Shown: positions 4,325 through 9,883 of the stretch, one piece after another | Numbering within the stretch: the first letter of the stretch is position 1 | Layout: each line of letters starts with the position of its first letter | Assembly (NCBI GenBank): GCA_020723185.1 | Contig: DYJI01000006.1 | Coordinates: 62,001-126,000 of the forward strand | DNA from: Sideroxydans lithotrophicus | GTDB taxonomy: Bacteria > Pseudomonadota > Gammaproteobacteria > Burkholderiales > Gallionellaceae | DNA length: 64,000 nt | Direction: 5' to 3' | Translations under genes and position numbers: made by a program | Notes under the pieces: model-generated | Seen by the model: only the letters and a program-made list of their open reading frames with translations | The model's database searches: none | Told to the model about the DNA's origin: nothing

Positions 4325-4795
4325 TCAGTCCTCGTCGGACGGGTTACCAGCGGCGGATTTCAGGACTTTCAGGATCACCTCGGCAGAGAATCCTCGGGAC
4401 TGCAGAAAACGTATCTGGCGCGCCTTTTCCACTGCATCCTGCGGTGGTTTACCGAACTTTCGCTGCCACACATCGCGCGCCGATTCCAGCTCGGAGGCTT
4501 TCAGCTCGGGCAGTGTAGCAGCGATAAGATCATCACCGATACCGCGCTGGCGCAATTCGTGGGCGATACGCTGGCTGCCGAATCGGCCGCGCTTTGCATC
4601 CACCAATTGCGTGGCTGCGCGCGCATCGGATAGCCAGTTGCGTTCTTCCAGCTCGTCCAGCACGGCTTCCAGATCTTCATCTTCCTGCACATACGGCTGC
4701 AGCTTTTGCCGCAACTCCCCCCTGCTGTGCTCGCGCCGCGCCAGATAGCGCATGGCGCGGACACGCAGCGTCAACTCAGGCTTCGGCTTCCGCAC
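4325..4795 (-). CDS. recX: RecX, regulatory protein of RecA
   Basis: RecX binds the RecA filament and limits its extension and strand-exchange activity. The 156-residue product has the three-helix repeat organisation of the family, with the ARREHSRGELRQKL block near the N-terminus and GSQRIAHELRQRGI in the middle. The start used is GTG, the first start codon after an in-frame TGA; no strong Shine-Dalgarno site precedes it. An internal ATG at MRYLARRE is an alternative. Its first 20 bases overlap the end of a small frame that fills the recA-recX gap, so translation is probably coupled to that frame and through it to recA. Confidence 0.93.
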   Translation of the reverse strand: MRKPKPELTLRVRAMRYLARREHSRGELRQKLQPYVQEDEDLEAVLDELEERNWLSDARAATQLVDAKRGRFGSQRIAHELRQRGIGDDLIAATLPELKASELESARDVWQRKFGKPPQDAVEKARQIRFLQSRGFSAEVILKVLKSAAGNPSDED

Positions 4796-4886
4796 CGGCG
4801 TTCAGGGCAGCCACGCCGAGCGTTTCGCGGACGCGATTCTGGTTACGGCCAGCCGCAGGCGCGGCTTTCACATGCGCTCCGCGCAT
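4776..4886 (-). CDS. Small ORF between recA and recX with a RecA-like C-terminal tail
   Basis: This frame encodes 36 residues from an ATG preceded by GGAGG at 5-base spacing. An in-frame upstream ATG at base 4922 overlaps the recA stop as TGATG and would give 48 residues. The last 20 residues (NRVRETLGVAALNAGAEAEA) parallel the end of the upstream RecA ([19 protein letters not shown]), and 15 bases (AATCGCGTCCGCGAA) are identical. It is in a different frame from recA, so it is not simple readthrough, and its stop lies inside recX. It may be a decayed partial duplication of the recA 3' end, a coupling peptide for recX, or a genuine small RecA-tail mimic. No function is known to me. Confidence 0.5.
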   Translation of the reverse strand: MRGAHVKAAPAAGRNQNRVRETLGVAALNAGAEAEA

Positions 4887-4921
4887 ATGAGCCTCCGCCG
4901 AAATCGCATCTGAACCGGTCA

Positions 4922-5941
<1,020 letters not shown>

Positions 5942-6001
5942 GTTCGATCTCCTTGGGAAAATTTCGGAGCGGATTGTTGCACAAGGTTTTGGACTTGTAC
6001 A

Positions 6002-6013
6002 GAACGTTCGTTC
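6002..6013 (-). promoter_or_regulatory. LexA (SOS) operator of recA, non-canonical type
   Basis: The minus-strand sequence GAACGAACGTTC is a perfect 5-bp inverted repeat around AA, 60 bases upstream of the recA start. It fits the Bacillus-type GAAC-N4-GTTC box and, from memory, exactly matches the GAACGaaCGTTC LexA motif described for Sideroxydans and Gallionella. No canonical betaproteobacterial CTGT-N8-ACAG box is present in this gap. It lies just 4 bases beyond the pncC stop codon, so recA can be induced independently of pncC. Confidence 0.85.
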
Positions 6014-6017
6014 TTTT

Positions 6018-6509
6018 TTATGCGGCAAGAGTATTTTGGGCCAGCCGGTCAAGTACGCCCTGCAAGGCCACGCGCTCCGCCTGGGCGCGCACCTCGTCCC
6101 GATTGCCGGAGAACTGATGGCGCGCCACCGTGGCAGCCCCCTTTGCGAGCGCCCAAGCGAACCAGACCGTGCCGACCGGCTTGTCCGGCGTACCACCGTC
6201 AGGACCGGCGATGCCGCTCACTGCCAGTGCGACTTGCGCCGTACTGTACCGCAAAGCCCCTTCCGCCATCTCGCGCACGACGGCTTCCGACACCGCACCA
6301 TAGGCGATCAACGTGGCTTCCTGCACACCCAGCATCTGCTGCTTGGACAGGTTGGAATAGGTGACGAAACCACGCTCGAACCAGGCCGAACTGCCGGAGA
6401 CGCTTGTGACTGCCTGTGCGATGCCGCCGCCGGTACAGGACTCCGCGGTCGCCAGCATCATGCCGTGCGACTTGAGCGCAGCCCCAACCTTTGCCGCCAG
6501 CGTATCCAT
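6018..6509 (-). CDS. pncC: Nicotinamide-nucleotide amidohydrolase PncC (CinA C-terminal domain)
   Basis: PncC deamidates NMN to nicotinate mononucleotide, recycling pyridine nucleotides. The 163-residue product is the stand-alone C-terminal CinA domain, with the signature ATAESCTGG near the N-terminus and [19 protein letters not shown] in the second half. The ATG start overlaps the metZ stop as TGATG and has GAGG 6 bases upstream; the GTG one codon earlier is too close to that site. The pncC-recA pairing is common in Proteobacteria. It is probably translated from the metZ message, under the riboswitch in front of metZ. Confidence 0.93.
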
Positions 6510-7678
6510 CACAGTCCTCGTGCGAGGTCGTTCTGGATGTCGACCACCGCCTCCAGTCCGACCGCGATGCGGATCAAGCCATCGGTGATGCCGGCCGCCG
6601 CGCGTGCTTCGGGTGTGATGCGGGCATGGGTGGTGGTGGCCGGATGGGTGATGGTGGTCTTGGTGTCACCCAGGTTGGCGGTGATGGACAACAGTTTCGT
6701 GTTGTCGATCACCTTCCATGCCGCTTCCCTGCCCCCCTTCACTTCGAACGCGACAATGCCGCCGCCGGTCTTCTGCTGCTTCATCGCCAGCGCATGCTGC
6801 GGATGCGACGGCAAGCCGGGATAGAGCACGCGCGCCACGTTGGGCTGTTGTTCCAGCCATTGCGCCAGTTGCAGGGCATTGGCGCTGTGCGCGTCCATGC
6901 GCAGCTTGAGTGTCTCAAGACCCTTGAGGAACACCCAGGCGTTGAACGCGCTCATGGTAGGCCCGGCGGTGCGCAGGAAACCGTACACCGGCTCCATCAG
7001 TTTCTTGCTGCCCAGCACTGCGCCGCCCAGCACGCGCCCCTGTCCATCTATGTACTTGGTGGCGGAATGGATGACGATGTCCGCCCCCAGCTCCAGCGGG
7101 CGCTGCAGGATGGGTGTGCAGAAACAATTGTCCACGGCCAGCAACGCACCGCATCCCTTGGCCACCGCCGAGATGGCCGCGATGTCGGAGATCTCGGTGA
7201 GCGGATTGGATGGCGTCTCCAGGAAGAACAGCTTGGTGTTCGGACGCACCGCTGCCTGCCATTCGGCCACATCCGTTGCCGAGACGTACGTCGTCTCCAC
7301 GCCGAACTTCTTGAAGTAGTTGTTGAACAGGTTGATGGTCGAGCCGAACAGGCTGCGCGAGGCGACGATATGGTCCCCCGCTTTCAGCAGCCCCATCACG
7401 CAGGCGAGGATGGCCGACATGCCGGACGAGGTAGCCACGCATTGCTCCGCGCCTTCCAGTGCTGCCAATCTTTCCTCGAACATGCTGGTCGTGGGATTGG
7501 TGAAGCGCGCGTAGATGTTGCCCGGCTCTTCGCCGATGAAGCGCCGGGCGGCCTGTGCCGCGTTGTCGAACGTGAAACTGGAGGTCAGGAACATCGCCTC
7601 GCCATGTTCCATGAAAGGCGTTTGTACCCGCCCCGCCCTGACGGCCAGCGTCTCCAGCTGGTATTCGTTATCAGACAT
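6509..7678 (-). CDS. metZ: O-succinylhomoserine sulfhydrylase
   Basis: MetZ makes homocysteine directly from O-succinylhomoserine and sulfide, a PLP-dependent step of methionine synthesis. The 389-residue product belongs to the Cys/Met metabolism PLP family. The PLP lysine is Lys208 in HSATKYIDG, and SSGMSAI (84-90) forms the cofactor phosphate site. The start is the third of three consecutive start codons (GTG-ATG-ATG), chosen because GGAGG lies 5 bases before it. The gene sits behind a leader that reads as a SAM-II-type riboswitch with a terminator, which fits end-product repression by S-adenosylmethionine. It overlaps pncC by one base. Confidence 0.95.
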   Translation of the reverse strand: MSDNEYQLETLAVRAGRVQTPFMEHGEAMFLTSSFTFDNAAQAARRFIGEEPGNIYARFTNPTTSMFEERLAALEGAEQCVATSSGMSAILACVMGLLKAGDHIVASRSLFGSTINLFNNYFKKFGVETTYVSATDVAEWQAAVRPNTKLFFLETPSNPLTEISDIAAISAVAKGCGALLAVDNCFCTPILQRPLELGADIVIHSATKYIDGQGRVLGGAVLGSKKLMEPVYGFLRTAGPTMSAFNAWVFLKGLETLKLRMDAHSANALQLAQWLEQQPNVARVLYPGLPSHPQHALAMKQQKTGGGIVAFEVKGGREAAWKVIDNTKLLSITANLGDTKTTITHPATTTHARITPEARAAAGITDGLIRIAVGLEAVVDIQNDLARGL

Positions 7679-7712
7679 CATCACCTCCCTCGCGGCTCAA
7701 GGCTCGCGCAAC

Positions 7713-7746
7713 AAAAAACCCGGAAAGCTTGACGCTAAACCGGGTT
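7713..7746 (-). terminator. Intrinsic terminator of the metZ leader (attenuator)
   Basis: On the minus strand AACCCGG (7746-7740) pairs with CCGGGTT (7723-7717), with a small inner AGC/GCT helix, and the second arm runs into six T residues. Only 35 bases separate it from the metZ start, leaving no room for another promoter, so it must be read through for metZ to be expressed. The 5' arm also takes part in an alternative hairpin (7734-7759) in which GCTAAA pairs with TTTAGC and GGG pairs with CCC. That hairpin would prevent the terminator from forming. Confidence 0.85.
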
Positions 7747-7748
7747 CT

Positions 7749-7802
7749 CCCGCTTTAGCTGAATTTATATCGCGCCCGCAAGCTGTTCCTCAAATCGGCG
7801 CA
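7749..7802 (-). promoter_or_regulatory. SAM-II-type riboswitch aptamer upstream of metZ
   Basis: The minus-strand RNA contains, in order, GCGCC-GAUUUG, a GCUUGC segment, GGGCGC (closing P1), then AUAUAAAU and AGCUAAAG. This order and spacing match the SAM-II (metA) aptamer as I remember it from the crystallised environmental sequence: GCGCU-GAUUU, UUGCAAGCGC, GAUAAAU, AGCUAAA. The U-rich GAUUU and A-rich AUAAAU stretches would form the pseudoknot and triplex that hold SAM. GCUAAA is also half of an antiterminator hairpin, so ligand binding should free the terminator. The gene controlled is metZ, a methionine gene, which supports the call. SAM-II is best known in Alphaproteobacteria. No covariance search was possible here. 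Confidence 0.72.
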
Positions 7803-7807
7803 GGCGG

Positions 7808-7837
7808 AAAGTAGCACCCTCCGCCTTGATCCGTCAA
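7808..7837 (-). promoter_or_regulatory. Candidate sigma-70 promoter for the metZ leader
   Basis: On the minus strand TTGACG (7837-7832) is followed after 18 bases by TACTTT (7813-7808). The -35 is nearly ideal and the -10 is weak. Initiation about 7 bases downstream would fall at G7801, exactly where helix P1 of the proposed riboswitch begins. The promoter lies immediately after the purF stop codon. A 6-bp hairpin (AGGCGG/CCGCCT, 7826-7802) overlaps it. Read-through from purF is the alternative source of metZ transcripts. Confidence 0.45.
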
Positions 7838-7838
7838 A

Positions 7839-9365
<1,527 letters not shown>

Positions 9366-9403
9366 AATCGTTTCCCGTTTCCTGTGAATTTAATCGTTCG
9401 TTT

Positions 9404-9883
9404 TCAGCGTTGCGCTGTCTGCGTCGGCAAATAGTCGCGTGCATACAGCGCGGCCTGATGCAGCGGCTTGCTGGTCCATGCATCCTTCCACCAGCGTTTC
9501 TCCGGTAGACTGGTCAGACCGCCTATCCATACCAGCGCAAGGACCACCAGCAGTCCGCGCAGCACACCGAACATGATGCCGAACTTCCCGTCCACTCCGC
9601 CGAGCCCGGCGATCTTGGTCAGTTTGGACAGCAACCATGCGAACACGGCAGCCACGATCAGCGTCACCACGAACACCAGCGCAAAGGCCAACGCCGAACG
9701 GACAGCCTCCGCCGCGATCGCCTCGGGGATAAACGGCAAGGCCTGATCAGACAGCGTACTCGCCGCGATATATGCCGCGGCCCATCCCAGCAACGAGAAC
9801 AACTCATACATGAAACCGCGCCACCATCCCAGCAACGCCGATAACGCAATGACCACCAGAACGGCAATATCAAAGAACGGCAT
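9404..9883 (-). CDS. cvpA: CvpA family inner-membrane protein
   Basis: This 159-residue membrane protein has four predicted hydrophobic segments (about 3-20, 28-48, 64-88 and 104-125). It opens with FDIAVLVVIALSALLGWWRGF, a typical CvpA start. CvpA was named for colicin V production and is linked to envelope homeostasis; its biochemical role is not settled. It lies 4 bases downstream of the SPOR gene and 38 bases upstream of purF, so it is part of the folC-SPOR-cvpA-purF unit found in many Proteobacteria. The family assignment is secure from sequence and context. Confidence 0.92.
   Translation of the reverse strand: MPFFDIAVLVVIALSALLGWWRGFMYELFSLLGWAAAYIAASTLSDQALPFIPEAIAAEAVRSALAFALVFVVTLIVAAVFAWLLSKLTKIAGLGGVDGKFGIMFGVLRGLLVVLALVWIGGLTSLPEKRWWKDAWTSKPLHQAALYARDYLPTQTAQR

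Follow-up and report, generated by a model that had tools for sequence, protein, structure and literature searches.

The leader of metZ in the genome of Sideroxydans lithotrophicus (Gallionellaceae; assembly GCA_020723185.1) very probably forms a riboswitch of the SAM-II class which, from its sequence and its modelled folds, is predicted to act as a transcriptional OFF switch of metZ and probably also of pncC, the gene behind it. The stretch of DNA analysed, hereafter the window, comprises 64,000 nucleotides (nt) of contig DYJI01000006.1 (positions 62,001 to 126,000), and the switch occupies positions 7837–7713 on its minus strand, between purF (7839–9365) and metZ. In this scheme S-adenosylmethionine (SAM) would be the ligand, its binding would lead to actual termination ahead of metZ and pncC jointly, and read-through would depend on the kinetic holding of an antiterminator hairpin. 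The elements are as follows.

7837–7832 and 7813–7808, minus strand: sigma-70-like promoter, −35 box TTGACG and −10 box TACTTT with an 18-nt spacer, assigned from sequence and conservation
7811–7734, minus strand: match to RF00521 (SAM_alpha, SAM-II), 32.4 bits, expectation value (E) 2.2e-5, full model length
7801–7772, minus strand: P1 stem, GCGCC 7801–7797 with GGCGC 7776–7772, from the RF00521 match and two-sided changes in relatives
7796–7791, minus strand: P1 loop GAUUUG, followed at 7783–7779 by the P2 5′ strand GCUUG
7770–7763, minus strand: linker AUAUAAAU
7759–7751, minus strand: 3′ strand of the putative pseudoknot P2, GCUAAAGCG
7759–7734, minus strand: antiterminator hairpin GCUAAA-G-CGGG-AGAA-CCCG-G-UUUAGC, −14.5 kcal/mol alone and −16.2 in context
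7744–7713, minus strand: intrinsic terminator, CCCGG 7744–7740 with CCGGG 7723–7719, AGC/GCU upper stem and six U at 7718–7713, −12.2 kcal/mol

Aptamer and terminator in the metZ leader

The assignment to SAM-II starts from the Rfam match listed above, obtained by cmscan over positions 7400–8200 (801 bases), where at E ≤ 1 only RF00521 and a weak antisense match to RF02424 were found, and no match to SAM-V. The bases GAUUU, UUGC, AAAU and GCUAAA are all intact, and the elements named in an earlier reading made from the sequence alone (the sequence-only reading) are in place on the minus strand, with the small amendment that the motif runs GGGCGC-G-AUAUAAAU, one G longer. Pairing of P2 is possible between GCUUG and C plus AAGC, although these pairs are almost invariant and the choice of relatives partly imposed their motifs; in RF00521 the structure line covers P1 only, and so its score is no test of P2.

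Searched genome-wide, RF00521 returns the window copy at E 1.7e-5 and a second SAM-II element at G000:C9:293175-293253 on the minus strand (L001 1501-1579), which at 37.1 bits lies over the family cut-off. This second copy precedes metX, encoding homoserine O-succinyltransferase (NF047916 MetX_succinyl, 677.6 bits, cut-off 560), whose product is the substrate of MetZ, and it has the same antiterminator and terminator layout, with GCUAAAGCG set against CGCUCUAGC. The only match weaker than the window copy at E ≤ 1 (15.8 bits, E 0.57) resembles coding sequence by eye and was discarded as chance. Together with the E-value and with an aptamer core found before 50 of 80 related metZ genes (see below), the metX copy bears out the proposal of a SAM-II aptamer in front of metZ.

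The antiterminator and terminator hairpins overlap, such that they are predicted to be mutually exclusive, and the antiterminator moreover shares a strand with the aptamer. Both spans proposed in the sequence-only reading (7734–7759 and 7713–7746) fit the folds, the terminator being extendable to 7746 by two A-U pairs. When the segment 7759–7719 is folded alone, the antiterminator prevails at −16.2 kcal/mol, with an outer-pair probability of 0.993 versus 0.005 for the terminator; blocking the first eight bases of the aptamer 3′ strand, GCUAAAGC, as a stand-in for the expected effect of SAM binding, flips the segment to the terminator at −12.2 kcal/mol. As the modelled prefix grows, the antiterminator remains the most favourable fold for 3′ ends from 7733 to 7718. 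The earlier expectation that SAM would favour termination draws support from the sequence and from this blocked fold.

Transcription would then start just downstream of the −10 box at 7813–7808, and P1 would be the first stem to form in the nascent RNA. With SAM scarce, GCUAAAGCGGG would pair with CCCGGUUUAGC upon emergence of the latter, the antiterminator would occupy the 5′ arm of the terminator, and read-through into metZ would follow. With SAM plentiful, the ligand would be held in the P1/P2 pseudoknot, tying up GCUAAAGC; CCCGG, then free, could pair with CCGGG ahead of the six U, and transcription would stop 30–35 nt before metZ. The genes concerned, for which the sequence likewise supports the earlier proposal of metZ and probably pncC as targets, are:

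6509–7684 (likely 6509–7678), minus strand: open reading frame of metZ, O-succinylhomoserine sulfhydrylase (NCBIfam NF006003, 731 bits, cut-off 522)
6018–6512, minus strand: pncC, nicotinamide-nucleotide amidase (NF002975, 221.1 bits, cut-off 212)

In the window pncC overlaps the metZ stop, and the two are probably co-transcribed. The likely start of metZ is the ATG at 7678 or 7681, preceded by GGGAGG (7689–7684) as a likely Shine-Dalgarno sequence. The position of this sequence bears on whether control might be translational, with the pseudoknot hiding the metZ ribosome-binding site, as was proposed for the Sargasso Sea example. Such a layout appears in three relatives belonging to one other family (L197, L198, L209), where GCUAAAGAGGU stands a few bases before a start codon, but the likely Shine-Dalgarno sequence of the window follows 7751 by 62 nt, with the terminator in between, and this distance makes translational control of metZ very improbable.

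Relatives and covariation

Of 544 places resembling metZ in named genomes, the 80 best were compared; the genome titles are mostly Gallionella, Sideroxydans, Gallionellaceae and Nitrosomonadales, with some given to class or phylum only. The aptamer core, sought as a sequence pattern, lies upstream of metZ in 50 of the 80. TTGAC is kept in 47 of the 49 leaders that have 48 nt before GATTT; among those 47, TACTTT is the best −10 hexamer in 32, and the distance is constant in 39. The gene pncC follows metZ in all 80 loci, with or without a switch (in 24 of them the two genes overlap by about 3 nt at the metZ stop), which makes joint control likely, while pncC is not tied to the switch. Upstream, purF is present in 43 of the 50 loci with a switch and in 24 of the 30 without. 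In five loci (L111, L115, L116, L124 and L163) the riboswitch stands 684–726 nt before metZ, versus the usual ~95–220, with an intervening gene apparent which may also be switch-controlled.

For the wider comparison, 99 distinct elements were chosen by a pattern that fixes GATT(T/C), GC(T/A)TGC and GCTAA(A/G), leaving out identical elements and three cut by contig ends (L163, L023, L026). Necessarily, conservation of these fixed bases proves nothing, since the elements were selected by them. Two alignments, A1 (42) and A2 (44), were hand-picked from the 99, and a third, A3, holds 17 metK leaders. In the alignment of 44 elements, of which 43 rows are distinct, both sides of a pair are changed in 23 cells of P1, against a shuffle mean of 6.5 and with none of 500 shuffles reaching as many; three of its pairs carry two-sided changes, a number reached by 7 of 500 shuffles, and sliding the partner strand destroys the signal. 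One of the three is the outermost pair, which is unpaired in 14 of the 43. The terminator, over 42 sequences, has 17 such cells (shuffle mean 7.1; none of 500 as many), and the innermost pair of its lower stem is G-C in 24, C-G in 15, U-A in one, U-G in one and unpaired in one. As for the antiterminator, 88.6% of its cells are paired, as opposed to 23–52% when one strand is slid. Hints of compensation in this hairpin come from outside the family, GCUAAACG with CGUUUGGC in L084 and, read by eye, GCUAAACAG with CUGUUUAGC in L343. The covariation that the sequence-only reading had called for as a check is hence seen in P1 and the terminator and is absent from the antiterminator, the 5′ strand of which coincides with the unvarying strand of the aptamer.

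The terminator itself is widespread. A loose rule found it in 98 of the 99 elements; by a stricter rule with a shuffle null, which we prefer, it is present in 95 of the 99 nearer elements and in 84 of the 99 further ones, versus 14–22 and 12–17 in shuffles. The window and five relatives from its family are part of the further set; L224 was left out of the count, its GCUAA not being found at the expected place. The nine-base GCUAAAGCG strand and the downstream segment form a duplex that outdoes shuffles (p ≤ 0.05) in 32 of the 34 distinct metZ leaders, the window included, in 33 of the 39 distinct remaining nearer elements (those of metX and of other genes) and in 25 of 35 distinct far metZ leaders. 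Judged from these sequences, the antiterminator layout is a general feature of metZ leaders and is less marked in those of far metX. Three metZ leaders (L148, L150, L069) carry a hairpin-forming insert of ~56 nt within the terminator loop of the switch.

With regard to distribution, RF00521 matches 57 of 61 genomes taken from the genus outwards at E ≤ 1, and the cut-off is exceeded in 23; 8 of 14 control genomes also match at E ≤ 1, none over the cut-off, and so only strong matches count. An aptamer model built from A2 with the window included (R1) matches 231 of 300 genomes of the order, Burkholderiales, at E ≤ 0.01. In 100 further loci, 60 of them from the R1 search listings and 40 hand-picked to span families, six query proteins were compared with the downstream genes, and the best match, which need not lie in the first gene, was to MetZ or a relative in 44 loci, to MetX in 22, to a MATE transporter in 12, to MetK in 8, to MetH in 7 and to MetN in 3; four loci had none. 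The window and its family account for six of the 44 MetZ-type loci; in four, the encoded protein is only 34–36% identical to MetZ, and one of these, when tested, proved to belong to the cystathionine gamma-synthase family. NCBIfam bears out two MetK and two MATE genes; for one MetH and one MetN the expected family is the best match yet scores below cut-off, the MetH being cut by the locus end.

Against the riboswitch reading weigh the following results. The window copy scores below the RF00521 gathering score (32.4 against 36 bits), so that one of the refuting outcomes named in the sequence-only reading, no hit above threshold, applies to this copy; the aptamer core has no match in 30 of the 80 metZ loci, with up to 1500 nt upstream examined; and the fold of the leader, 7809–7704, has no more than a modest advantage over shuffles (z −1.52, 18 of 200 equal or better). 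A simple consensus scanner reported no promoter-like site within 4700–9500 and missed the metZ terminator, whose internal loop breaks the stem rule of the scanner. With the U tract in place, the terminator becomes the most stable fold even unblocked (−28.9 and −30.2 versus −27.1 kcal/mol), which means that read-through requires kinetic holding of the antiterminator. The duplex of the GCUAAAGCG strand beats shuffles in just 6 of 18 far metX leaders and 11 of 22 far leaders of other genes. As to covariation, the number of pair types in P1 is no better than in shuffles (194 of 500 as high), and much of the remaining change there comes from metZ and metX leaders differing by a single C-G to U-A exchange; in the terminator, two-sided changes are confined to one pair, a number reached in 500 of 500 shuffles, and 88 of 500 shuffles have as many pair types; in P2, 98.1% of cells are paired and there is hardly any variation, in part because these motifs served to pick the relatives; and no antiterminator pair is changed on both sides in the alignment. 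The changes in P1 and the terminator mostly track a single metX–metZ split. The low score is outweighed by the E-value, by the sister copy over the cut-off and by the relatives; the gathering score is a database threshold and not a structural feature. At gathering threshold, the whole window has a single Rfam match, a tRNA.

Known SAM-II systems and two orphan names

The window switch is ordinary for its class, and its kind is already known from earlier papers. These describe terminators after many SAM-II RNAs, usually with a promoter a few bases before P1, and place a few SAM-II RNAs in other proteobacteria and the Bacteroides group (Corbino 2005, PMC1273637). Sinorhizobium meliloti metZ has a SAM-II with a predicted SAM-induced terminator, from which a small RNA, RZ, accumulates (Scheuer 2022, PMC9373788). 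Since terminators of this sort had been described, that of S. meliloti metZ included, the window switch is not a new kind, and the rarity claimed for it in the sequence-only reading was overstated. In the open-access literature no SAM-II riboswitch paper with Gallionella turned up.

In S. meliloti and in the window the gene and the predicted SAM-induced Rho-independent terminator are the same, while levels of small RNA and mRNA were measured in S. meliloti and the window switch, known from sequence alone, is compared by description. The RZ RNA raises the thought, discussed for S. meliloti, that the terminator mainly releases a small riboswitch RNA acting in trans, control of metZ being secondary; in the window, however, aptamer and switch account for the conserved parts, and we regard such a role as a slim prospect.

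Described SAM-II RNAs (metA motif, RF00521) share with the window P1, GAUUU, GCUAAA, a promoter just before P1, a terminator after the aptamer and a methionine gene downstream. The plan of a pseudoknot P2 is likewise the same, its pairing in the window being putative. They differ in score and in the length of P2: among the matches listed, same-phylum copies outside the class of the window, which are presumably alphaproteobacterial, reach 47.6–87.7 bits with a longer P2, whereas the window copy has a short GCUU/AAGC P2 and 32.4 bits. In those copies too, by eye, the P2 3′ strand pairs with the terminator 5′ arm, seemingly by the same logic. That the pseudoknot senses a relative of SAM such as S-adenosylhomocysteine is the least probable alternative of all, for while the window and its beta-type relatives have GCUU/AAGC where the RF00521 consensus has the longer CGGCC/GGCCG, the GAUUU, UUGC, AAAU and GCUAAA of the window aptamer are intact and the target genes are those of methionine and SAM synthesis.

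Two names in the literature appear to belong to the same element. A novel metXZ element was reported from beta-proteobacteria in an account which, in its accessible text, gives SAM_alpha only in Rhizobiales and Rhodobacterales (Leyn 2014, PMC4239095); it shares with the window the beta-proteobacterial host, the genes, a predicted pseudoknot of two interleaved pairings and a downstream terminator. From this description, as distinct from its sequences, the metXZ RNA is probably the beta-type SAM-II element. The other, RF02424 (Bp2_287), is the Burkholderia small RNA Bp2_Cand287_SIPHT, placed before methionine genes by its authors, with neighbours purF, metZ and metX (PMC3521395); compared with the window element, it is modelled on the opposite strand. 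At E ≤ 0.01, 13 of 24 genomes together contain 17 RF02424 matches (3 of 14 controls also match, none over the cut-off). All three matches above the cut-off coincide with an R1 match running on the other strand; so do 5 of the other 14, while 9 do not. In the window its match is weak (7721–7800, plus strand, 14.7 bits, E 0.89). At L223 1414-1590, RF02424 lies on the reverse strand of a beta-type SAM-II leader.

The metK variant and a possible tandem

Before metK, in 17 leaders of five families (L213, L214, L216-L218, L220, L221, L265-L270, L278-L281), there is a SAM-II-like variant aptamer, CGCCGAGUUAA...ACAACUUGC...GCUAAAGCGUCG, with mostly GAGUUAA; counting all loci found, the variant stands before metK in five or more families. 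In cmscan searches of four such loci no Rfam family matched at the place of the variant at E ≤ 0.5. Its P1 has 13 cells changed on both sides (none of 500 shuffles as many), and neither the pairs so changed (186 of 500) nor the pair types (500 of 500) are better than in shuffles. A model of the variant, R2, matches 177 of 300 genomes at E ≤ 1e-6, cross-matches to ordinary SAM-II included. Among the 30 loci listed for R2, 15 had served to train the model, and every one of these has metK; the other 15 comprise nine with metK, two with MATE and four with none of the queries. The accessible open-access literature on metK riboswitches in Burkholderiales does not describe the variant.

Among the matches listed, an R1 match is followed 88–167 nt later by an R2 match in 16 genomes, an arrangement of ordinary SAM-II and metK-type variant that is possibly a tandem riboswitch. 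Loci with it include L204/L283, L257, L312, L313 and L285, and G331:C6, G283:C1 and G313:C266. The tandem often stands before a small protein starting MYDC or MFDC, followed by a MATE transporter. The small protein has no Pfam match (three tested) and no NCBIfam match (two tested), and a search of the open-access literature for SAM-II with MATE and metK turned up nothing. On balance we favour the view that a short-P2 beta-proteobacterial branch of SAM-II, scattered in the literature under three unconnected names (SAM-II with terminators, the metXZ element and the antisense RF02424), gave rise to the metK variant with GAGUUAA and ACAACUUGC, which in some cases is the second of two switches, after an ordinary SAM-II, ahead of a MATE-transporter operon.

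These side leads (the metK variant, the tandem and the orphan names) deserve more attention than the metZ switch itself, and the two orphans, metXZ and RF02424, probably reduce to the beta-type SAM-II element. The switch nevertheless offers a well-formed transcriptional SAM-II example from a family of iron oxidisers, in which a single sequence lets the putative SAM-binding strand be seen to double as the antiterminator strand. Taken with the metX copy, the genome seems to control homoserine O-succinylation and sulfhydrylation, two consecutive steps, alike. Moreover, as the Rfam cut-off misses many beta-type copies (23 of the 61 genomes have one over it), the regulation of methionine synthesis in these bacteria is probably under-annotated.
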